Assembly: GCA_025352265.1 (NCBI GenBank)
Contig: JANXTS010000033.1
Span: forward strand, 62,001-126,000
Length of the DNA: 64,000 nucleotides
Direction: 5' to 3'
From: Variovorax sp.
Lineage (GTDB): Bacteria; Pseudomonadota; Gammaproteobacteria; Burkholderiales; Burkholderiaceae_C
Shown here: positions 42,950 through 57,523 of the stretch, in pieces
Layout of the letters: every line of letters starts with the position of its first letter
How positions within the stretch are numbered: position 1 is the stretch's first letter
The notes under the pieces: model-generated
What the model saw: the letters and a program-made list of their open reading frames with translations, nothing else
Database searches by the model: none
What the model was told of the DNA's origin: nothing
Made by a program: the position numbers and the translations under genes

Positions 42950-43597
42950 CTAAACCGTACCACCGATCGGATCCTGGGTGGCGGCCACGACGCACCGGGC
43001 AACCAGCTGCGCCACATAGGTTTTGAATAGCAACTCTCCCGACTGGCGAAACATTCGAATGCGTCCCGTGTGCTGCATCAGCAGCAGGCCGACACCCTGC
43101 GCAAACAGGGAAGTGTTTTCTTGCAGCGCCCTCTTTGCGTCGAGGCCCATTGCCCGCAGCGCGTCTTCACAGGGCTTCAGCGCGTCGTACAGGCGGTCGT
43201 TCAGCTCGTGGTCGAGGTCACTGGTCAGACCCCGAGGGCGCATGCCGTGAACCAGATAAAAGCCCAGGTCCAGATCGCGTGGATTCGCGGCGTAGAAATC
43301 GAACCAGGCCAGCGCCTTCGCCAACAGTGTTTTGTCTGGCTTGGCCTTGAACACTCGCGCGCCGGCAACGGCGGCTTGCAGACGCGTCAACGACTCGTCG
43401 AGCAAGGCGGCGTACACCGCCTCCTTGCTGTCGAAGTACGAGTAGATCGCGCCTGGGGTGTAGCCGGCGCGCTTGGCGATTTCGCGGATGCTGGCGCCTT
43501 CGATGCCCGCTTCGGAGAACACCGAGCGCGCGGCATCGAGCACCAGTGCACGGCGTGCATCGGTGAGTGTTTGCCGACGTTGGAGCTTGGCATGCAT
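42950..43597 (-). CDS. TetR/AcrR-family transcriptional regulator
   Basis: A 215-residue one-component repressor. The helix-turn-helix is at about 35-55 (ASIREIAKRAGYTPGAIYSYF). The C-terminal ligand domain contains the FYLVHGMRPRGL segment seen in several uncharacterised betaproteobacterial TetR proteins. The start ATG at 43597 (MHAKLQRRQ) was chosen because the frame upstream runs across the divergent promoter. It is divergent from the hydroxylase-family gene, so it most likely represses that gene and itself. Confidence 0.88.
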   Translation of the reverse strand: MHAKLQRRQTLTDARRALVLDAARSVFSEAGIEGASIREIAKRAGYTPGAIYSYFDSKEAVYAALLDESLTRLQAAVAGARVFKAKPDKTLLAKALAWFDFYAANPRDLDLGFYLVHGMRPRGLTSDLDHELNDRLYDALKPCEDALRAMGLDAKRALQENTSLFAQGVGLLLMQHTGRIRMFRQSGELLFKTYVAQLVARCVVAATQDPIGGTV

Positions 43598-43645
43598 CGG
43601 TCGAATATAGCGCCGACCTGCATGCATCTCCAATTTTTTGGACAG

Positions 43646-43678
43646 TTGAACAATCATTTGAACAGTGTTTAAATCATT
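43646..43678. promoter_or_regulatory. Candidate TetR operator in the divergent intergenic region
   Basis: TTGAACA occurs at 43646-43652 and again at 43658-43664. The second copy pairs with TGTTTAA (43666-43672) to make a 15-bp near-palindrome with one mismatch. AATCATT is also repeated (43652-43658 and 43672-43678). This 98-base space separates the TetR gene from its divergent neighbour, and the palindrome ends 23 bases before the neighbour's ATG. Confidence 0.5.
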
Positions 43679-43694
43679 GAATACTGGAGACACG

Positions 43695-45335
43695 ATGAAT
43701 GCTGCCCTTCCCGTCGCCAACCTGATGTCTGGCAACGACTACCGCGACTCGCTGCGGCGTTACAAACCCACCGTCTTCGTCGACGGACGCCGCGTCGAAA
43801 GCGTGGCCGACGAAGCGGCCTTTCAGCCCGGCATCAATGCCATCGCGCTGACATACGACTACGCGCTGCAGTCGCGATACGAGCCGCTGATGACGGCCAT
43901 CCAGCACACCAGCGGTAAGCGGGTAAACCGGCTGTCGCACATCAACACCGGATCCAGCGACCTGTTGAACAAGCTCGAAGCAGTGCGGCTCGTTTGCCAG
44001 GAAACCGGCTGTGCCCAGCGGTATCTGACGCACGATGCACTCAACGCCATTGGACAGGTGTCGGCACGCATCGACGAGGCGCGCGGAACGACCGAAAACA
44101 CCGCCCGGTTCACCGAATATCTGCACCGCATCCAGGATGAGGATCTGACGCTCGGCGTCGCGATGACCGACGCCAAAGGCGACCGCAGCAAGCGCCCGCA
44201 CGAACAATCGAACATCGACAGCTACCTGCACATCGTCGAGCGCAATGCACTGCGCAACGGGGTGCGCGGCATCGTGATTTCAGGCACCAAGGCCATCGTG
44301 ACCGGCGCGCCCTACGTGCATGAACTGCTGGTCATGCCATGCCGCAACATGAGCCGCGAGGACGCGGATTTCGCAGTGTGCTGCGCCGTGCCACTCGACG
44401 CACCGGGCTTGACCATCGTGGCGCGCCCGGCCGGTCGCCCTGGTGAAAAACTGGAACATGGCGATGCGCTGTTCAGCCGCAAATACGGCCAGAGCACAGG
44501 CGTCTGCATGTTCGATCGCGTCTTCGTGCCATCGGACAACGTGTTCTACGCCGGCGAGTGGGAGCACACAGGTCACCTGACCTACAGCTACGCCACGCAC
44601 CACCGCCACAGCTGCATTGGCGCGCGCGCAGGCTTCGGGGATTTGCTGATCGGTGCCGGCGCGCTGATGTGCGAAGCCAATGGCTTCGACCCGGGCAAGG
44701 AGACGCACTTGCGCGAACAGATGGTCGAACTCATCACCATCACTGAGAGCTTCTTTGCCTGCGGCGTGGCGGCGAGCGTCTACGGAAAGGCCGACGAGCA
44801 TTGCGACATCTTCATGCCCGACCCGGTGTTCAGCAACATCGGCAAGCTGCTGCTGGCCACCAAGATCTACGACATGCACCGCATTGCGCACTATGTGAGC
44901 GGCGGGCTGATCGTGACGCTGCCCGGCCCGGACGAAGATCACAACCCGGAGACCGCGGCGCGCCTGTCGGAGGTGCTGCGCGCCAGCCCCGACGTGCCAT
45001 ACGAACAGCGCATCGAAACTGCGCGTTTCATCGAAGACCTGACCGCCGGCTACCAGGGCGGCTGGTACAGCGTGATCAGCCTGCACGGCGGTGGCTCGCC
45101 AGCCGCAATGAAGCAGGAGATCTATCGCAACTACCCCATCGGGTCCAAGGTCGAACTGGTTGAACGGCTGCTCGACCGCGGTGTGGCGCACGATCCGAAC
45201 CGAGCGATTACGAAGAACCGTCAGCCCGGCAAGTGCTGCGACACCGGCTGCACGACGCCGGGCCAGGCAGTGATGGTCGATCTACCGGCACCGCGATCGG
45301 TGCGCCTGCCGGTGCCGGCGACACCCGCGGCCTAG
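43695..45335 (+). CDS. 4-hydroxyphenylacetate 3-hydroxylase / 4-hydroxybutyryl-CoA dehydratase family protein
   Basis: A 546-residue FAD-binding protein of the HpaB/AbfD superfamily. It aligns along its length with 4-hydroxybutyryl-CoA dehydratase (VFVDGRRVESV, YLHRIQDEDLTLGVAMTDAKGDR, HGGGSPAAMKQEI). From memory of the clostridial AbfD sequence, the Fe-S ligand positions C99, C103, H292 and C299 correspond here to C106, Y110, H303 and A310, so two cysteines are lost. Other cysteines (C101, C307, and a C-terminal GKCCDTGC) are present. It may therefore be a flavin monooxygenase or a non-cluster variant; the substrate is unknown. The start at 43695 follows GGAG by six bases, in preference to a GTG ten codons upstream that lies within the operator. 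Confidence 0.75.
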   Translation: MNAALPVANLMSGNDYRDSLRRYKPTVFVDGRRVESVADEAAFQPGINAIALTYDYALQSRYEPLMTAIQHTSGKRVNRLSHINTGSSDLLNKLEAVRLVCQETGCAQRYLTHDALNAIGQVSARIDEARGTTENTARFTEYLHRIQDEDLTLGVAMTDAKGDRSKRPHEQSNIDSYLHIVERNALRNGVRGIVISGTKAIVTGAPYVHELLVMPCRNMSREDADFAVCCAVPLDAPGLTIVARPAGRPGEKLEHGDALFSRKYGQSTGVCMFDRVFVPSDNVFYAGEWEHTGHLTYSYATHHRHSCIGARAGFGDLLIGAGALMCEANGFDPGKETHLREQMVELITITESFFACGVAASVYGKADEHCDIFMPDPVFSNIGKLLLATKIYDMHRIAHYVSGGLIVTLPGPDEDHNPETAARLSEVLRASPDVPYEQRIETARFIEDLTAGYQGGWYSVISLHGGGSPAAMKQEIYRNYPIGSKVELVERLLDRGVAHDPNRAITKNRQPGKCCDTGCTTPGQAVMVDLPAPRSVRLPVPATPAA

Positions 45336-47276: not shown

Positions 47277-49100
47277 TCAGCGCTTGACCGGCGGCAGATC
47301 GGTGCAGTGACCGTGCAACGCCTCGGCCGCAAGACCGATGCTCTCCCCCAGCGTCGGATGCGGATGGATGGTCTTGCCGATGTCGATCGCGTCGGCACCC
47401 ATCTCGATGGCCAGCGCAATCTCACCGATCATGTCTCCGGCATGCGTACCCACGATGCCGCCACCCAGGATCTGCTCGGTTTCCGCATCGAACAGCAGCT
47501 TGGTAATGCCTTCGTCGCGGCCATTGGCAATTGCACGGCCAGAGGCGCTCCACGGGAACAGCCCCTTCTTGATGTTGATGCCTTCCGCTTTGGCCTGGTC
47601 TTCGGTGAGGCCGACCCAGGCCACTTCGGGGTCGGTGTAAGCCACGCTCGGGATCACGCGCGCGTTGAAGGCCGCCGCGGCCAGTTGCTTGTCGCCCTTT
47701 TGCTCACCAGCGATGACCTCGGCCGCCACGTGCGCCTCATGCACCGCCTTGTGCTCCAGCATAGGCTGGCCGACGATGTCGCCCACCGCGAAGATGTGCG
47801 AGATGTTGGTCCGCATCTGGATGTCGACCGGGATGAAGCCGCGGTCGGTCACGGTCACGCCAGCCTTCTCTGCACCGATCTTCTTGCCGTTGGGGCTGCG
47901 GCCGACGGCCTGCAGCACCAAGTCGTACAACTGCGGCTCTTTGGGCGCAGCCTCGCCTTCGAAGGTCACCCTGATGCCGTCCTTGGTCGCTTCGGCACCC
48001 ACCGTCTTCGTCTTCAGCATGATGTTGTCGAAGCGCGGTGCGTTCATCTTTTGCCAGACCTTGACCAAGTCGCGGTCGGCGCCCTGCATCAGGCCGTCGA
48101 GCATTTCGACCACGTCGAGTCGAGCCCCGAGCGACGAATACACAGAGCCCATTTCGAGTCCGATGATGCCACCGCCGAGGATCAGCATGCGCTTGGGATC
48201 GATGCCCAATTCCAAAGCGCCAGTCGAGTCGACCACGCGCGGATCTTTGGGCATGAACGGCAGATGCACTGCCTGCGATCCAGCCGCAATGACGCAGTTG
48301 CGGAACTTGACGGTCTGCGCCTTGCCGGTCGTGGCCTGGCCGTCACCGCTGGTCTCCTGCACCTTGACGTGGAACGCATCGATAAATTCGCCGACGCCGC
48401 GCAAGGTCGCGACCTTGCGCATCTTCGCCATCGCGGTGAGCCCGCCGGTGAGCTTGGTCACCACCTTGTTCTTGCGTGCGAGGAGCTTGGTCCGGTCGAT
48501 CACCGGCTCGCTGAAGGTCACGCCCATGTCGGCGAAGTGCTTGACCTCGTCCATCACCGCGGCGACGTGCAGCAGCGCCTTCGACGGAATGCAGCCGACG
48601 TTGAGGCACACGCCGCCCAGCGTGGCGTAGCGCTCGACCAGGATGACTTTGAGCCCGAGATCCGCCGCGCGAAACGCCGCCGAGTAACCACCTGGCCCGG
48701 CACCCAGCACGAGCAGATCGCATTCGTGATCCACGGCGCCACCATAGGTAGTCGCCGGCGTAGCAGCAGTGGGAGCAGTCGATGCCTGAGCAGACGGAGC
48801 TGGCGCTGGGGCAGTTGGAGCTGGCGTTGGTGCTGGGGCAGCAGGCGCCGCAGCGCCAGCCCCGCTCACCTCCAGCGTCAACACCACCGAACCCTGCTTC
48901 ACCTTGTCGCCGACACCCACGGTCAGCGACTTCACGACGCCCGCGGAGGACGACGGGATCTCCATCGACGCCTTGTCGGATTCCACCGTGATCAGCGACT
49001 GTTCGGCCTTGACCGTGTCGCCGACCTTGACCAGCACTTCGATGACTGCCACTTCGTCGAAGTCGCCGATGTCGGGTACCTTGATTTGTTGTTCGCTCAT
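47277..49100 (-). CDS. lpdA: Dihydrolipoyl dehydrogenase (E3) with N-terminal lipoyl domain, pyruvate dehydrogenase complex
   Basis: E3 of the pyruvate dehydrogenase complex, 607 residues. Residues 1-78 form a lipoyl domain with the modified lysine K43 (ESDKASME). An Ala/Pro/Thr linker (79-120) leads to the flavoprotein: FAD motif [14 protein letters not shown], redox cysteines C165 and C170 ([13 protein letters not shown]), second nucleotide motif [10 protein letters not shown], and catalytic HPHPTLGES near the C-terminus. E3 with its own lipoyl domain is known in Neisseria- and Ralstonia-type complexes. The start overlaps the stop of the upstream proteasome-like gene (ATGA). The last gene of the operon, ending at a terminator. 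Confidence 0.96.
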
Positions 49101-49687
49101 GAGGACACCTTCAATTTGAGAGTGAGTACATCGGCCGGTCCGGCCGAATTACGATCGAATTCACAGCCAGCTGCGATGCCGGCTTCGGCTACTTCGCGCG
49201 CGGAACGCGCTTTGGCATACACCGCGTGCATGGCACCGAGTGCAAAGCTTCGTCCGGAGCCGATGCTCCAGAACTGCTTGAACTCGAACACCTCACGGTA
49301 GCTGTAGACCCCATAGATGCCAGTTGCATTCGCCAACACCAGGCTGAACTGGCTCGACTCATAAGGGTCATGCTCGTCTTCCTTGGTTTGGAGAAAGAAG
49401 GACTCCTTGAGCAGCGGATGCAGCTTGGTGAACGTACGGTAGATCTCGTCGCGGCTGCGCAGCTTTAGCTCGTCTTTGCCGATCGCTGCCAGCGCATGCC
49501 GAAGCGCCGGAAAGTGCGCCACGGAGCCCGACGCGGCAAAGAGACTGCGCCCCCCTGCATCGTCGAGCTCGAACACCTTTCGGTTGTCTTCCTGCGCATG
49601 CGAGAGCCGCGTGTCGCCGAAAGTGACCAGCGTGTCCGCTGCGATCACCACATGACTGCCCTTGCGGACAGCCACCACCGTGGTCAT
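49097..49687 (-). CDS. Proteasome-like Ntn-hydrolase subunit, probable betaproteobacterial proteasome homologue (BPH)
   Basis: A 196-residue N-terminal nucleophile hydrolase. After removal of Met1 the protein begins [17 protein letters not shown], closely matching HslV and proteasome beta subunits. T2 is the likely nucleophile, and D18 and K37 match proteasome Asp17 and Lys33, with a three-residue insertion before the Lys. [11 protein letters not shown] (142-152) matches the HslV IGSGGPYA segment with the catalytic-site Ser (S144). D178-R-N-S181 fits the DxxS motif. There is no HslU or other unfoldase gene next to it. I infer the BPH family from length, sequence and host group. It sits between aceF and lpd and overlaps both by ATGA. 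It is easily mis-annotated as hypothetical or as a membrane transporter. Confidence 0.82.
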
Positions 49688-51387
49688 AGCAAGACTCGGC
49701 GGAAGTCGGCGAGAACCTGCCCGAGGTAGGTGTTGAAGCGTGCAGCCGACGCGCCATCGATCACGCGATGGTCATACGACAGCGACAGCGGCAACGTCAG
49801 GCGCGGCACGAACTGCTTGCCATCCCACACCGGTTTCATCGCACTCTTCGACAAGCCGAGGATCGCCACTTCAGGCGCATTGATGATGGGCGTGAAGTGC
49901 GTACCGCAGATGCCGCCGAGCGAGCTGATCGACATGCAACCGCCCTGCATGTCGACTGAGCCGAGCTTGCCGTCGCGAGCCTTCTTGGCGAGCTCTCCCA
50001 TCTCGGTGCTGATCTGCAGAATGCCCTTCTTGTCGGCATCTTTCAACACTGGAACTACCAGGCCGTTGGGTGTGTCCGCCGCGAAACCGACGTTGTAATA
50101 GTGCTTATAGACCAGCGTGTCACCGTCCAGGCTGGTGTTGAAGTCCGGGAATTTTTTCAGCGCGGATACGACTGCCTTGATCACGAAAGCCAGCATCGTC
50201 ACCTTGACGCCGGACTTCTCGTTCTCCTTGTTCGTCAACACGCGGAAGGCCTCGAGCTCGGTGATGTCGGCATCGTCGTTGTTGGTGACGTGGGGAATCA
50301 TCACCCAATTGCGATGCAGGTTGGCGCCGCTGATCTTCTTGATGCGCGACAGGTCCTTGCGCTCGACCGCGCCAAACTTGGCAAAGTCGACCTTGGGCCA
50401 CGGAATCAAACCGAGTGCGGCGCCGTCGCCACCACCACCGCTCGCCGGTGCTTTCGCCGCCGAAGCTTTGGTGCTCGCCGCGCCGCTCATCACCGCCTTC
50501 GTGAATGCTTGAACGTCCTCTTGCGTGATGCGGCCCTTGGGACCCGAGCCCTTCACTTCTTCGAGCGGCACGCCGAGTTCGCGAGCGAACTTGCGCACCG
50601 ATGGAGATGCGTGCGGCAAGCCGGCGCTAGGAGCGACCGTCGGGTTGTGGCCGGCCGGTGGCGCCGACGCTGCCGGCGAACTGGCAGGTGGTGCCGGGAC
50701 GGTGGCCGTGGCGGCAGAAGGCGCAGCAACGGCCTGTGCAGGTGCAGCCGCCGAAGGCGCAGGCGCTGCCGGTGCCGGTACCGCGCCACCAGCCGCTCCT
50801 TCCAGGATCGCGATCAGGTCACCGATGTTGACCGTGTCGCCGACCTTGACCCTCAGCTCCTTGAGCACGCCGGCGGCCGAAGCCGGAATCTCCATCGAAG
50901 CCTTGTCGGTTTCGACGGTGATCAACGACTGCTCTGCCTTGATCGTGTCGCCGGGCTTGACCAGGATCTCGATGACCGAGACGTCCTTGAAGTCACCGAT
51001 GTCGGGCACCTTGATTTCGATCGGACCACCGCCGCTCAGTGGTGCTGCGGCGGGTGCCGCGGGCGCAGCGGGTGCAGAAGACGGCGTCGGCGCGGGCGCG
51101 ACAACCGCAGCGGGTGAAGGCGCCGCGGCAGGTGGAGATAGCGCAGCGCCCTCACCTTCCAGCACCAGCACGACCGAACCTTGCTTCACCTTGCTGCCGA
51201 CTTCGACCTTGATCTCCTTCACGACGCCGGCTTGGCTCGACGGGATTTCCATCGATGCCTTGTCTGTCTCCACCGTGATGAGCGACTGTTCGGCCTTGAC
51301 CGTGTCGCCCACTTTCACCAGCACCTCAATGACTGCGACCTCGTCGAAATCGCCGATGTCCGGTATCTTGACTTCCACTGCTGCCAT
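49684..51387 (-). CDS. aceF: Dihydrolipoyl acetyltransferase (E2) of pyruvate dehydrogenase
   Basis: Core of the pyruvate dehydrogenase complex, 567 residues. It has two lipoyl domains (about 1-78 with K43, and 123-197 with K162; both [10 protein letters not shown]), each followed by an Ala/Pro-rich linker. Next come a peripheral subunit-binding domain (about 265-300, [20 protein letters not shown]) and the acetyltransferase domain ending in [14 protein letters not shown]. It is 62 bases downstream of aceE. The stop TGA overlaps the start of the proteasome-like gene. Confidence 0.97.
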
Positions 51388-51449: not shown

Positions 51450-54188
51450 TCAAGCGTAAAGCGGATTCACTTTGTCAACATTAATTGCGTACTTCTTGAT
51501 CGCGTCAGCCACCTTTTGCACAGGCACGGTGCCGTCTTCGCTCAAGGCTTTGAGTGCGGCAACGACGATGTAGTGGCGGTTAATCTCGAAGTGCTCACGC
51601 AGCTTGTTGCGGAAGTCGCTGCGGCCGAAGCCGTCGGTACCCAGCACCTTGTAGGTGCGGCCCTTGGGGATGTATGGACGAATCTGCTCGGCGTAAGCCT
51701 TCATGTAGTCGGTCGACGCGACCACCGGGCCGGCACTGGCTGCCAATTGCTGCGCCACGAAGGACACGCGCGCCGTATCGATCGGGTGCAGCAGGTTCCA
51801 GCGGTCGACATCCTGGCCGTCGCGGGTCAACTCGTTGAAGCTTGGGCAGCTCCACACCGAGGCGGAAACGCCCCAGTCTTTTTCGAGCAACTCTTGCGCC
51901 GCGAAGCTCTCGCGCAGGATGGTGCCGCTGCCGAGCAACTGCACCGTCGGCGCGTCCGTGCCCTTGACGGCCTTGATCGCCGGGCCAGGTTTGGCCAGGT
52001 ACATGCCCTTGATGATCTGCTCCTCGGTGCCGGGCCTAAGGCCGGGCATCGGGTAGTTTTCGTTCAGCAGCGTCAAGTAGTAATAGACGTTGTCCTGCTT
52101 CTCGACCATGCGCTTCAGACCGTGGTGCAGGATGACGCCGACTTCGTGCGCGAAGGTCGGGTCGTAGCTCACGCAGTTAGGGATCGTGTTGGCCAAGATG
52201 TGGCTGTGACCGTCTTCGTGCTGCAGGCCTTCGCCGTTGAGCGTCGTCCGGCCCGAGGTACCGCCGAGCAGAAAGCCGCGCGCCTGCATGTCGCCGGCCG
52301 CCCAGGCCAGGTCGCCGATGCGCTGAAAACCGAACATCGAGTAGTACACATAGAACGGCACCATGATGCGGTTGTTCGTGCTGTAAGACGTGGCCGCGGC
52401 GATCCAACTGCTCATGCCGCCGGCCTCGTTGATGCCCTCTTGCAGGATCTGACCGGCCTTGTCTTCCTTGTAATACATGACCTGGTCTTTATCGACCGGG
52501 GTGTACTGCTGGCCTGCGGGGTTGTAGATGCCGATCTGGCGGAACAAGCCTTCCATGCCGAAGGTGCGTGCCTCGTCGACCAGGATCGGCACGACGCGCG
52601 GGCCCAGTGCCTGGTCGCGCAGCAACTGCGTCAAGAAGCGAACGTACGCCTGCGTCGTCGAGATCTCGCGTCCCTCGGCAGTCGGCTCCATGACGCTCTT
52701 AAAGACCTCGATCGACGGCACGGTGAAGTTCTCGTCCGCCCTGGTGCGGCGATGCGGTAGGTAGCCGCCGAGCGCCTTGCGCCGCTCGTGCAGGTACTGC
52801 ATTTCAGGCGTGTCGTCGGCCGGCTTGTAGAAAGGCAGTTCGGCCAGTTGGCTATCGGGAATCGGAATGTTAAAGCGATCGCGAAAAGCCTTGATGTCTT
52901 CGTCGCTCAGCTTCTTGGTCTGGTGCACGTTGTTCTTGCCCTCACCGATCTTGCCCATGCCAAAGCCCTTGACGGTCTTCACGAGCAAGACCGTTGGCTG
53001 ACCCTTGTGCTTCACGGCTGCATGGAAGGCTGCGTACACCTTTTGCGAATCGTGGCCGCCGCGGCGCAAATTCCAGATGTCGTCGTCGCTCAGCTTGGCG
53101 ACCATTTCAGCGGTGCGCGGATCGCGGCCGAAGAAGTTCTTACGCACGTAAGCGCCGTCATTGGCTTTGAACGACTGGTAGTCGCCGTCGTTCGTGTCCA
53201 TCATGATCTTGCGAAGCGCGCCGTCCTTGTCACGCGCCAGCAGCGAATCCCAGCCCTGCCCCCAGATCAGCTTGATGACGTTCCAGCCGGCACCTCGGAA
53301 CTCGCCTTCGAGCTCCTGGATGATCTTGCCGTTGCCACGCACCGGCCCGTCGAGCCGCTGCAAATTGCAGTTGATGACGAACACCAGGTTGTCGAGGTTT
53401 TCGCGCGCGGCGAGTCCGATGGCACCGAGCGATTCGACCTCGTCCATTTCGCCGTCGCCGCAGAACACCCAGACCTTGCGGTTTTCGGTGTTAGCGATGC
53501 CGCGGGCATGCAAGTACTTCAAGAAGCGCGCCTGGTAGATCGCCATCAGCGGGCCGAGGCCCATCGACACCGTCGGAAACTGCCAGAACTGCGGCATCAG
53601 TTTCGGATGCGGATAGCTCGACAGGCCCTTGCCATCGACTTCTTGCCGGAAGTTGAGCAACTGCTCCTCGGTCAGCCTCCCTTCGAGGTAGGCGCGGGCA
53701 TAGATGCCGGGCGACACGTGACCCTGGATATAAAGGCAGTCGCCGCCGTGCTCTTTGCCTGGTTCCGCACTCTCGGCATGCCAGAAATGGTTGAAGCCGG
53801 CGCCAAACATGGTGGCCAGCGAGGCGAAAGAGCCGATGTGACCGCCGAGGTCGCCGCCTTCGGGCGGGTGATGGCGATTCGCCTTGACAACCATTGCCAT
53901 CGCGTTCCAACGCATGAAAGAGCGCAGCCGCTCTTCGATTTCTGCATTGCCAGGGGAACGTTCCTCCTGGTCGACCTCAATGGTATTGACGTACGCCGTA
54001 GTTGCCGAAAACGGTTTGTCGATGCTGTGCTGCCGCGCATGTTCCAGCAGTTGTTCCAACAGAAAGTGAGCCCGGTCGGGCCCTTCACTCTGGATGACGG
54101 CCGACAGCGCGTCCATCCATTCGCGGGTCTCTTGCGCGTCCGCGTCATTTGCGGCCGAGCCGAACAGGTTCTCGGGAGTTGCCGACAT
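51450..54188 (-). CDS. aceE: Pyruvate dehydrogenase E1 component (homodimeric)
   Basis: Thiamine-diphosphate-dependent E1 that decarboxylates pyruvate and acetylates the E2 lipoyl groups. It is 912 residues, of the AceE type. Motifs: GDLGGHIGSFASLATMFG, the thiamine diphosphate site WVFCGDGEMDEVESLGAI, and LLVKTVKGFGMG. The start has AGGAG seven bases upstream. It heads aceE-aceF-BPH-lpd. The 168 bases between it and the divergent sensor kinase gene are AT-rich and contain the imperfect inverted repeat ACCAATTTCAAATGGT, a possible regulator site. Confidence 0.98.
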   Translation of the reverse strand: MSATPENLFGSAANDADAQETREWMDALSAVIQSEGPDRAHFLLEQLLEHARQHSIDKPFSATTAYVNTIEVDQEERSPGNAEIEERLRSFMRWNAMAMVVKANRHHPPEGGDLGGHIGSFASLATMFGAGFNHFWHAESAEPGKEHGGDCLYIQGHVSPGIYARAYLEGRLTEEQLLNFRQEVDGKGLSSYPHPKLMPQFWQFPTVSMGLGPLMAIYQARFLKYLHARGIANTENRKVWVFCGDGEMDEVESLGAIGLAARENLDNLVFVINCNLQRLDGPVRGNGKIIQELEGEFRGAGWNVIKLIWGQGWDSLLARDKDGALRKIMMDTNDGDYQSFKANDGAYVRKNFFGRDPRTAEMVAKLSDDDIWNLRRGGHDSQKVYAAFHAAVKHKGQPTVLLVKTVKGFGMGKIGEGKNNVHQTKKLSDEDIKAFRDRFNIPIPDSQLAELPFYKPADDTPEMQYLHERRKALGGYLPHRRTRADENFTVPSIEVFKSVMEPTAEGREISTTQAYVRFLTQLLRDQALGPRVVPILVDEARTFGMEGLFRQIGIYNPAGQQYTPVDKDQVMYYKEDKAGQILQEGINEAGGMSSWIAAATSYSTNNRIMVPFYVYYSMFGFQRIGDLAWAAGDMQARGFLLGGTSGRTTLNGEGLQHEDGHSHILANTIPNCVSYDPTFAHEVGVILHHGLKRMVEKQDNVYYYLTLLNENYPMPGLRPGTEEQIIKGMYLAKPGPAIKAVKGTDAPTVQLLGSGTILRESFAAQELLEKDWGVSASVWSCPSFNELTRDGQDVDRWNLLHPIDTARVSFVAQQLAASAGPVVASTDYMKAYAEQIRPYIPKGRTYKVLGTDGFGRSDFRNKLREHFEINRHYIVVAALKALSEDGTVPVQKVADAIKKYAINVDKVNPLYA

Positions 54189-54356: not shown

Positions 54357-56897
54357 ATGCCTTTTTCTTCCCCCATCGCGGTCGCTCGCAGCGCTGCTAA
54401 TGCGTCTCCCTTGTCGTGGTGGCGGCGCTGGTGGCGGCGCCAGACGCCGGTGCTGCAAGACGCGGTCGCCATGCTCGCGCCGTTGGCCGCCGTGCTGCTG
54501 TTTCTGGGCGTGATCGTTTCGGCCTTCTGGTACTTGCGGGCCGAAGAAGTTGAGCGGGAACAGGAGTCGGTCAAGCGCGACGTCGAGTACGCGCAGCAAC
54601 GGGTGCGGCTGCGGCTGCTGGAGCGGCAAGAGCAACTGATGCGACTGGCGCGCGATGCGTCGAACCGCGAAATCGACGCGGCCGAGTTCACTAGCCGCGC
54701 CGAGTCTTTGGTGAGCCAGTTTCCGGAGCTTCAGGAGATCAGCTGGATCGATGATCGGCGCCGCTTCAAGGCGAGTTACGCGGCCCCGAGCGTCCATCCA
54801 TCGCAGCAACATCCAGTTGGCGAAGTACTTCGACCCGGCGACACCGAAAGCAACTACGCACTGGCGCGCGAACTGCGCCAGCCTGTGTTCTCGCAGCCGA
54901 TGGCCGGGACAGGTCCGCCGAGCATGTTGCAGCTCCACATTCCGCTCTTCGATCAAGGCTTGTTCGCGGGCGCAGTGGTCGGCGAATTTTCTGTCGACGG
55001 ACTGCTTCGCTACGGCATTCCTCCGGAAGTCTCCGCGCGGTATGCAGTGGCGCTGCTCGATGCGAAGAGCGGCCTGCTGGCTGGCAACACCGTCAATCCC
55101 CGCGAGGCCGGCACGCGCCTGCTGCCCTGGGCCGAGCACACCAACGAGTACGAGGTGCCTGTGTCGCCGGTCGGCAATGGCTTGGTGCTGCGTGCGCAGG
55201 CGTACCGAACGTCCCAGGGCTTCGTCGGCAACGGCCTCTTTTGGCTGGTCGGCGCGCTGAGCGTGCTCACCAGTTGGATGCTCATCGGCACCTGGCGTCA
55301 CACCCGGCGGCGACTGCAGGCGCAACAGGCGCTGATCGCTGAAACCAACTTCCGCCGGGCAATGGAAAACTCGATGCTGACCGGCATGCGAGTGCTCGAT
55401 CTCGAAGGCCGAATCACCTATGTCAACGCCGCCTTCTGCGATATGACTGGCTGGAGCGAAGCGGAGTTGGTCGGCAAGGCGCCGCCCTTTCCGTACTGGC
55501 TGGAATCAGATCGAGAGGTCATGAACGACCGGCTCGAAGAAGAGCTGCACGGTCGTGCTTTGCCAGGTGGTTTCCAGGTGCGGGTTCGGCGCAAGAACGG
55601 CAGCATTTTCAACGCGCGCCTGTACGTATCGCCGCTGATTGACGCCCGTGGCCACCAGACCGGCTGGATGACGTCAATGACCGACATCACCGAGCCGACG
55701 CGCATTCGGGAGCAGCTGTCGGCCTCTTACGAGCGCTTCACAACGGTACTCGAAGCACTCGATGCCGCGGTGTCGGTCGCGCCGATCGGCAGCGAAGAAC
55801 TGCTGTTTGCCAACAAGCTCTATCGGCTCTGGTTCGGCTCCAACACCGTCGGCCATCTCGGCATGGTCGCGCAGGCCGGCGTACCGGCCTCGCAGGCGCA
55901 CGACGAGGCGCTGGACGACGTCGATCCGTTCGCCGGCCTGCCGATCGACACGCTCACCGCCGCACAGCCCGCCAACAACGAAATCTTCGTGCTCGAGCTT
56001 GGCAAGTGGCTCGAAGTGCGCTCACGCTATCTGACTTGGGTCGATGGCCGGCTCGCGCAGATGGTGATCGCGACCGACATCACACCGCGCCGCGTTGCCG
56101 AGGAGCAGGCGGCCGCACAGGCCGATCGTGCGCAGGCGGCGAGCCGTCTCATCACCATGGGCGAGATGGCGTCGAGCGTAGCGCACGAACTCAACCAGCC
56201 GCTGACGGCCATCGCCAACTATTGCAACGGCATGGCGTCTCGCATCCGCGGTCAGACGATCGACTCCGAATCGCTGCTGGCCGCGCTCGACAAAACATCC
56301 AAGCAGGCACAGCGTGCCGGCCAGATCATCCAGCGCATCCGTTCTTTCGTGAAGCGCAGCGAACCCAACCGCACGCCGGCCGAGGTGGGCACTATGGTGA
56401 GCGAGGCCGTGGAACTGGCCGGCATAGAACTGCGACGCCGCAACGTGCGGCTCAACCACTACGTGGCGGCACGGCTTCCCATCTTGCAAGTCGATCCGAT
56501 CCTGATAGAGCAAGTGATGGTCAACTTGTTGAAGAACGCGGCCGAGTCGATCGACAACGCGAATCGCCCGTTGGCGCGGCGCAGCGTCGAGCTGCGCGTG
56601 CTGCCCAAAACGATCGAGGGCCAGAGCGCCGTCGAATTTTCGGTGCAGGACACCGGCATGGGCCTCGCGCCGGAAGTGATGGACCGGCTCTACGAAGCAT
56701 TCTTCTCGACCAAGCCCGAAGGCATGGGCATCGGGCTCAACCTGTGTCGCACTATCGTCGAATCGCATCGCGGCCGTATGCAGGCGGAGAACATCTACAA
56801 TGGCCGGGAGGTGGTCGGATGCCGTTTTTCCTTCTGGATTCCGGTGTTGGATGCTCTAAATTCCATAGCAAACGACGAGGCAAAGGTACCTGCATGA
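54357..56897 (+). CDS. Membrane PAS sensor histidine kinase (FixL-like kinase half)
   Basis: An 846-residue sensor kinase. Layout: cytoplasmic N-terminus, transmembrane helix 1 (about 37-59), a periplasmic sensor region of about 230 residues, helix 2 (about 292-314), a PAS domain (about 325-450, MRVLDLEGRITYVNAAFCDMTGWS), a second, weaker PAS-like region (about 460-585), HisKA with the phosphorylated H610 (SVAHELNQPLTAIAN), and HATPase (LIEQVMVNLLKNAAES, DTGMGLAPE, GMGIGLNLCRTI). I see no FixL-type haem histidine motif, so it is probably not an oxygen-haem sensor. It overlaps the response regulator gene by ATGA and is divergent from aceE. A TACACT box seven bases before the ATG suggests a leaderless transcript. 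Confidence 0.88.
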   Translation: MPFSSPIAVARSAANASPLSWWRRWWRRQTPVLQDAVAMLAPLAAVLLFLGVIVSAFWYLRAEEVEREQESVKRDVEYAQQRVRLRLLERQEQLMRLARDASNREIDAAEFTSRAESLVSQFPELQEISWIDDRRRFKASYAAPSVHPSQQHPVGEVLRPGDTESNYALARELRQPVFSQPMAGTGPPSMLQLHIPLFDQGLFAGAVVGEFSVDGLLRYGIPPEVSARYAVALLDAKSGLLAGNTVNPREAGTRLLPWAEHTNEYEVPVSPVGNGLVLRAQAYRTSQGFVGNGLFWLVGALSVLTSWMLIGTWRHTRRRLQAQQALIAETNFRRAMENSMLTGMRVLDLEGRITYVNAAFCDMTGWSEAELVGKAPPFPYWLESDREVMNDRLEEELHGRALPGGFQVRVRRKNGSIFNARLYVSPLIDARGHQTGWMTSMTDITEPTRIREQLSASYERFTTVLEALDAAVSVAPIGSEELLFANKLYRLWFGSNTVGHLGMVAQAGVPASQAHDEALDDVDPFAGLPIDTLTAAQPANNEIFVLELGKWLEVRSRYLTWVDGRLAQMVIATDITPRRVAEEQAAAQADRAQAASRLITMGEMASSVAHELNQPLTAIANYCNGMASRIRGQTIDSESLLAALDKTSKQAQRAGQIIQRIRSFVKRSEPNRTPAEVGTMVSEAVELAGIELRRRNVRLNHYVAARLPILQVDPILIEQVMVNLLKNAAESIDNANRPLARRSVELRVLPKTIEGQSAVEFSVQDTGMGLAPEVMDRLYEAFFSTKPEGMGIGLNLCRTIVESHRGRMQAENIYNGREVVGCRFSFWIPVLDALNSIANDEAKVPA

Positions 56898-57523
56898 GCT
56901 TGATTCCGAAGAAGGGCACGGTCTACGTCGTCGACGACGATGAAGCAGTACGCGATTCGCTGCAGTGGCTGCTCGAGGGAAAGGACTACCGCGTCCGCTG
57001 CTTCGACTCCGCCGAGTCTTTTTTGTCCCGCTACGACCCACGCGAGGTCGCTTGCCTGATAGTGGATATCCGCATGGGCGGCATGACCGGGCTTGAATTG
57101 CAAGACCGGCTGATCGAGCGCCGCTCACCGCTGCCGATCGTCGTCATTACCGGTCACGGCGACGTGCCGATGGCGGTCGATTCGATGAAGAAGGGCGCTA
57201 TGGACTTCATCCAGAAGCCATTCAACGACGAAGAGCTGGTGACGCTGGTCGAACGCATGCTCGAGCACGCTCGCAGCGCCTTTGCACAGCACCAGCAATC
57301 GGCCAGTCGCGACGCCCTATTGTCCAAGCTCACCGGGCGCGAAGCGCAAGTACTCGAGCGCATCGTCGCTGGCCGGCTTAACAAGCAAATCGCCGACGAT
57401 CTGGGCATCAGCATAAAAACGGTCGAGGCGCACCGCGCCAACATCATGGAAAAGCTCAACGCCAACACGGTTGCCGATCTGTTGAAGATCGCGCTCGGCC
57501 AGGCGGCTCCCGCCAAAGCCTGA
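56894..57523 (+). CDS. FixJ-type response regulator
   Basis: A 209-residue two-component regulator. The receiver domain has acidic residues D14-D16 (VVDDDEAVRD), phospho-acceptor D58 (CLIVDIRM), Thr in VVITGHGD and K108 (FIQKPF). The C-terminal LuxR/GerE helix-turn-helix is LTGREAQVLERIVAG through IKTVEAHRANIMEKL. It is translated with the upstream kinase (ATGA overlap; AAAGG upstream). It could regulate the divergent aceE operon or distant genes. A strong terminator follows. Confidence 0.92.
   Translation: MSLIPKKGTVYVVDDDEAVRDSLQWLLEGKDYRVRCFDSAESFLSRYDPREVACLIVDIRMGGMTGLELQDRLIERRSPLPIVVITGHGDVPMAVDSMKKGAMDFIQKPFNDEELVTLVERMLEHARSAFAQHQQSASRDALLSKLTGREAQVLERIVAGRLNKQIADDLGISIKTVEAHRANIMEKLNANTVADLLKIALGQAAPAKA

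Follow-up and report, generated by a model that had tools for sequence, protein, structure and literature searches.

The betaproteobacterial proteasome homologue in the pyruvate dehydrogenase operon of Variovorax: identity, operon history and candidate function

Described relatives and identity of the protein

HslV (ClpQ), which works with HslU, shares a proteasome-beta-like fold and a Thr/Asp/Lys active site with the betaproteobacterial proteasome homologue (BPH), and the 20S proteasome beta subunit and Anbu belong to the same proteasome-like superfamily. The closest described systems are the BPHs of Cupriavidus metallidurans (5OVU) and Thiobacillus denitrificans (5OVS/5OVT), for both of which Fuchs et al. 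report a tetradecameric double ring (PMC5777263). The same paper describes covalent binding of epoxomicin to Thr1, inertness on peptides and casein, unchanged carbonylation patterns of stressed extracts, loss of the HslU-interface residues of HslV, no unfoldase candidate, and C. metallidurans pull-downs in which neither a subunit of pyruvate dehydrogenase (PDH) nor HslU was found. It also names three genomic contexts, namely argG, the three PDH genes (in C. metallidurans) and Hsp33, citing Valas and Bourne 2008, and places a Ser nucleophile in BPHs outside the Betaproteobacteria. The relative connectase is a ligase according to the accessible portion of PMC8665760, which adds no BPH function, and no later functional study of BPH was found among the matches listed in a literature search. 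Both the BPH family and its PDH-operon context are already known; since this context and the PDH-negative pull-down already stand in PMC5777263, the system cannot be called undescribed, as the initial annotation of the DNA had proposed.

The window analyzed here is a stretch of 64,000 nucleotides from Variovorax sp. (contig JANXTS010000033.1, positions 62,001 to 126,000). Its BPH gene occupies positions 49097..49687 of the minus strand. A 196-residue reading frame had been proposed there with no strand given, and it is real: the product begins with MTTVVAV, the nucleophile Thr standing directly after Met, and plus-strand frame 1 over the same interval is interrupted by stops. On the same strand, Pfam identifies aceE upstream (PDH E1, 912 aa, 51450..54188), aceF (PDH E2, 567 residues with two lipoyl domains, an E3-binding domain and a catalytic domain, 49684..51387) and lpd (PDH E3, 607 aa with an N-terminal lipoyl domain, 47277..49100). 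The double ATGA overlap claimed for this gene is present in the window, joining the E2 stop TGA to the BPH start ATG at 49684..49687 and the BPH stop TGA to the E3 start ATG at 49097..49100, both on the minus strand. Divergent from the PDH operon, at 54357-57523, lie genes for a PAS sensor histidine kinase and a FixJ-like response regulator (the latter recognized by eye), a pair that is a possible regulator of the operon. Also near the operon, at 42950-45335, a TetR regulator adjoins an HpaB-family (4-hydroxyphenylacetate 3-hydroxylase) gene. An anti-phage defence role for BPH was rejected, as there was no PADLOC match.

The reading frame is not a product of chance. Its protein matches the Pfam Proteasome family (PF00227) at 40 bits (cut-off 22.4), and its best PDB match is 5OVU (3e-63, 216 bits), followed by 5OVS (3e-27, 99 bits). 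HslV chains are the nearest structures outside BPH, the best of them at 4e-4 and 23.5 bits, and this comparison with solved structures bears out the earlier reading of the protein as a probable BPH. Among the 14 PDB matches with E up to 1, no chain is named Anbu. An identity as HslV or 20S beta was rejected because the curated NCBIfam cut-offs were missed, both by the HslV models (33.9 bits against 137 and 32.1 against 157.75) and by the proteasome beta models (archaeal, 32.4 against 224; bacterial, 22.1 against 191.9). The active site consists of T2, D18, K37, the oxyanion residue G54 and G143-S144-G145, with equivalents of Thr1, Asp17, Lys33 and Ser129. All residues singled out beforehand are in place (Thr2, Asp18, Lys37, Ile142-Gly143-Ser144-Gly145, Asp178 and Ser181), and the family conserves most of them. 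The alignment further delimits an acidic pore-loop segment at residues 100-110 (minus strand, 49358..49390, coordinates worked out by hand), which is gapped in the HslV of the same genome. The window protein therefore combines the features that mark a BPH: nearest similarity to BPH, the active site, no propeptide, the acidic pore loop and a PDH context.

Compared with the C. metallidurans protein, the window BPH is alike in family, in the Thr after Met, in the acidic pore loop and, according to PMC5777263, in its PDH-operon context; sequence divergence is the sole difference, the window protein being known from its sequence. The T. denitrificans BPH shares the family, the active site and, by homology, the fold, but differs in its argG-operon context (PMC5777263); 5OVS was left out of the tree described below. 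HslV differs in lacking the elongated acidic pore loop, as judged from the copy in the source genome.

That separate hslV gene (identified by Pfam family and by eye) lies beside an ORF resembling HslU by eye. Together with the position of HslV chains as the nearest solved structures other than BPH, it would suit a BPH that acts as a second HslV with HslU. Such a role is extremely unlikely, since genomes with BPH are no more likely to have HslV than genomes lacking BPH: a match of HslV strength (best E below 1e-14, a cut set in this analysis) is absent in 8 of the 40 BPH-positive and 19 of the 110 BPH-negative genomes of the source family (p=0.81, no association). A dependence of BPH on HslV was rejected on the same counts. 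The loss of the HslU-interface residues and the pull-downs free of HslU, both reported by Fuchs et al. (PMC5777263), also argue against this role.

Operon contexts and history of the PDH slot

Of 399 genomes sampled from the order, 152 have a BPH-like match. Loci with flanks were obtained for 147 of these genomes (the window and 146 further loci; the other five had no place listed). Among the further loci, hsp33 lies downstream of BPH in 55, an S4-domain (Hsp15-like) gene without hsp33 lies nearby in 14, argG upstream and/or yajQ (DUF520) downstream is found in 50, the order E2-BPH-lipoylE3 in 15, and none of the tested marker neighbours in 12. Each neighbour family takes its name from the Pfam match of a single representative; we take the S4-domain neighbour to be Hsp15 and the DUF520 neighbour to be YajQ. 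In a second set, drawn from named genomes, 64 of 67 loci have the order E2-BPH-lipoylE3 and contig ends truncate the other three. Variovorax/Ramlibacter is over-represented among the PDH-linked loci, and there is some overlap between the named and unnamed sets (L019 and L100 appear to be one contig). Diverged second copies of BPH occur in three genomes of genus code g38 (L300, L301, L302), with no tested marker neighbour.

Within the source family, BPH is present in 40 of 150 genomes. A count of locations in relatives had been suggested as a check on the aceF-BPH-lpd order, and the order proves stable: in all 40 genomes BPH or its remnant lies at the PDH locus, with 38 complete E2-BPH-lipoylE3 arrangements (the window and L100-L102 counted), one remnant (L285) and one arrangement split over two contigs (L298/L299). 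The remnant, at L285:262-2065 in a draft genome with 6% contamination, is a decaying BPH that matches only over residues 1-70 and 134-194. In the E3 that follows, the match starts no earlier than residue 110, so that the lipoyl domain seems to be missing.

In a tree of 147 BPHs with an HslV outgroup, the PDH-linked BPHs (16 rows, family codes f1, f3, f8, f10, f20, f21 and f32) fall on one side of a branch with values of 100/96. That a single clade holds the PDH-linked BPHs of seven sampled families is new here. The BPHs of the argG block (52 rows) form a separate clade at a branch of 100/99. Labels in this tree denote similarity blocks, under which 12 of the 146 loci, those without a marker, were given a block label (10 Hsp33-type, 2 argG), and the root is unsure because the HslV outgroup branch is very long. 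Given the position of the PDH-linked BPHs on one side of the 100/96 branch, a single placement into the PDH slot suffices. An independent entry of the two family f21 copies (L117, L139) was rejected, as the tree puts both inside the PDH clade. No PDH-clade BPH in the sample lies outside the PDH slot; this absence could reflect a functional tie, and it could count against an explanation of BPH as a general peptidase.

The presence of BPH was also followed on an E3 tree of the same family (38 positive and 65 negative rows), where it requires 20 changes, at least 7 of them forced by starred branches. This tree was built by a quick method and is weakly supported, only 19 of its 102 branches being starred and one of its two outgroup rows standing out of place; it omits L273 and L286 (both with a short E3), L298 and L331, and scores the remnant L285 as BPH-positive. 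With a single slot and a single BPH clade involved, repeated loss of BPH is the simplest reading. Transfer together with the operon is also possible.

The E2 and E3 genes themselves mostly remain where BPH is missing. Searches of 68 of the 110 BPH-less genomes of the family, in three batches (8/8, 28/30 and 29/30 positive), found an E3 match in 65. Of these matches, 63 begin in the lipoyl domain (residues 1-5), and those of L359 and L360 begin only at residue 123 or 111. None of the 66 PDH loci examined in the 65 genomes contains a BPH match. E2 stands beside E3 in 65 of the 66 loci and was not found in one (L352); consequently, E2 and E3 persist without BPH. The distance between them is at most 60 nt in 55 of the 66 loci, and 61-162 nt with no 60-aa ORF in 7. 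Another ORF occupies the slot in two loci, a DUF4253 protein in one (L315:3399-4091) and a 294-residue ORF with no Pfam match in the other (L254:3471-4352). In one further locus, L310 (G438:C103), E2 and the lipoyl-E3 appear in a single open frame of 1178 residues, probably an E2-E3 fusion. A factor for PDH assembly or quality control would be expected to accompany these PDH genes in every genome that keeps them, and BPH does not.

Translation, selection and diagnostic residues

The gene junctions were read in 107 PDH-linked loci (of 120 listed, 117 matched both E2 and BPH, and 10 of these were set aside because a start failed to align). E2 and BPH overlap in 39 of them, BPH and E3 in 64, and both overlaps occur together in 35; the gap on the E2 side of BPH reaches 168 nt. 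A Shine-Dalgarno match (<= -5 kcal/mol) is found at 2 of the 39 overlapping BPH starts versus 31 of the 68 non-overlapping ones, and this scarcity fits re-initiation in the window lineage. At E3 starts the figure is 36 of 107, and for random 19-mers it is 21%. The description of BPH as translationally locked applies to the window and its Variovorax-type relatives but not to PDH-linked loci in general, and general locking was rejected in view of the 35 double overlaps. Since the overlaps vary across the 107 loci, a fixed ratio of BPH to PDH synthesis, which had been deduced from the coupling, is not a conserved property.

BPH is under purifying selection, with a median dN/dS of 0.23; the corresponding medians are 0.18 (E1), 0.16 (E2 catalytic domain) and 0.19 (E3), from 911 of 1431 pairs among 54 loci. 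Its pairwise protein divergence correlates with that of E1, E2 and E3 at 0.70-0.78 (0.81 among the PDH genes), a consequence of shared ancestry from which nothing is drawn. In an alignment of 211 of 214 BPHs (three truncated copies and the 37 family loci L263-L299 lie outside it), a check for loss of the nucleophile in orthologues finds Thr2 kept in 207, replaced by Ser in 3 and gapped in 1; the second residue, read directly in 211 BPH relatives, is Thr in 208 and Ser in 3. Thr2, Asp18, Lys37, Gly54, Gly143 and Gly145 are intact in 207-211 of the 211 proteins, Lys37 and Gly54 being invariant, and Ser144 is intact in 202. The acidic pore loop, covering window residues 96-114, has a median net charge of -4 in the PDH group; the HslV of the source genome has 4 residues there. 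A BPH that is vestigial or slowly decaying in the window lineage would agree with its presence in only 40 of 150 family genomes, one of them with remnants only (L285), and with the frequent changes of state on the E3 tree. The dN/dS of about 0.23 and the conservation of the active site nevertheless make decay very unlikely.

The three BPHs with a Ser nucleophile (L195, L203 and L211, codons TCG, AGT and AGC) belong to the argG block, so switching between Thr and Ser also occurs within the sampled order and not only outside the Betaproteobacteria. L210, which shares its genus code with L195 and L211, has Thr.

Diagnostic positions were counted under a strict (90%/10%) and a relaxed (80%/20%) rule. 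The PDH-linked BPHs have 0 strict and 3 relaxed positions against the Hsp33-type block, and that block in turn has 1 strict and 6 relaxed against them. When three control clades from within the Hsp33-type block are compared with its rest, they yield 1-5 strict and 10-11 relaxed positions, counts that are inflated because these clades have fewer rows (8-12 versus 16). The argG block is separated from either other group by 13-18 strict positions, depending on the direction; its own positions number 17 in the comparison with the PDH group and 18 in that with the Hsp33-type block. The scarcity of PDH-diagnostic and the abundance of argG-diagnostic positions indicate that the protein bears no clear imprint of the PDH operon and that the argG-linked subfamily stands apart.

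These counts bear on a dedicated role in PDH quality control, in which BPH would trim or degrade PDH subunits, for example at the disordered Ala/Pro-rich linkers flanking lipoyl domains, which may enter the ring without an unfoldase. The order E2-BPH-lipoylE3, stable over seven family codes, and the overlap of BPH with the E3 start in 64 of 107 loci are in its favor. It is nonetheless distinctly unlikely, given the retention of E2 and E3 in BPH-less relatives, the lack of any strict PDH-clade diagnostic residue, the adjacency of Hsp33-type block orthologues to hsp33 or Hsp15-like genes, and the C. metallidurans pull-downs, in which no PDH subunit was reported (PMC5777263). Only a slim chance is given to a more specific form, in which the PDH-clade BPH would be an unfoldase-independent protease of the PDH complex, with the lipoyl-domain linkers of oxidized E2 and E3 threaded into the acidic pore and its dosage set by re-initiation after E2. 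The suggestion that PDH subunits, lipoyl domains or assembly intermediates are substrates or partners is likewise not supported, given that BPH is absent from all 66 PDH loci examined in BPH-less relatives and that the count of strict PDH-diagnostic residues is zero.

Function of BPH

The identity of the protein, its intact active site, purifying selection on it, its stable slot between E2 and the lipoyl-E3 in one clade, and repeated changes in its presence with E2 and E3 retained form the observed basis for a functional reading. BPH is probably an HslV-derived Ntn hydrolase that acts without ATP as a general compartment peptidase, its expression coming from a housekeeping operon. By homology, this N-terminal-threonine hydrolase would form a 14-subunit double ring that encloses its active sites and carries an acidic pore loop, and it may cleave unfolded or damaged chains or peptides with no specificity for PDH. 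A single ancestor may have placed the gene in the PDH operon, which would provide steady, growth-linked expression, and in the window lineage it is probably translated by re-initiation after E2. In other clades, the same job could be carried out from Hsp33/Hsp15 operons, while argG-yajQ operons house a subfamily that has diverged further. The inertness on peptides and casein and the unchanged carbonylation described by Fuchs et al. (PMC5777263) leave the general peptidase role unproven.

The fact that standard substrates are untouched though epoxomicin binds (PMC5777263) would also suit a narrow-specificity Ntn enzyme (a peptidase, an amidase or a connectase-like ligase) with one substrate unrelated to PDH, for which the operon would supply expression only. 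The ligase activity of the related connectase (PMC8665760) points the same way. With no substrate on record, and with three unrelated operon contexts that have no common small-molecule theme, such an enzyme is unlikely.

The facts of the initial annotation are right, and its claims of an undescribed system and of PDH partners are unsupported. The PDH slot is stable, yet nothing points to a PDH-specific job of BPH. BPH has a solved structure, and the comparison narrows the question of its substrate: its PDH address is one clade-specific placement. Because there are no strict PDH-specific residues and the presence of BPH changes frequently while E2 and E3 stay, the substrate is best sought in a general role, in stress or housekeeping, common to PDH- and Hsp33-linked species. 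Natural BPH-positive and BPH-negative relatives can be used as matched pairs in the search for substrates.
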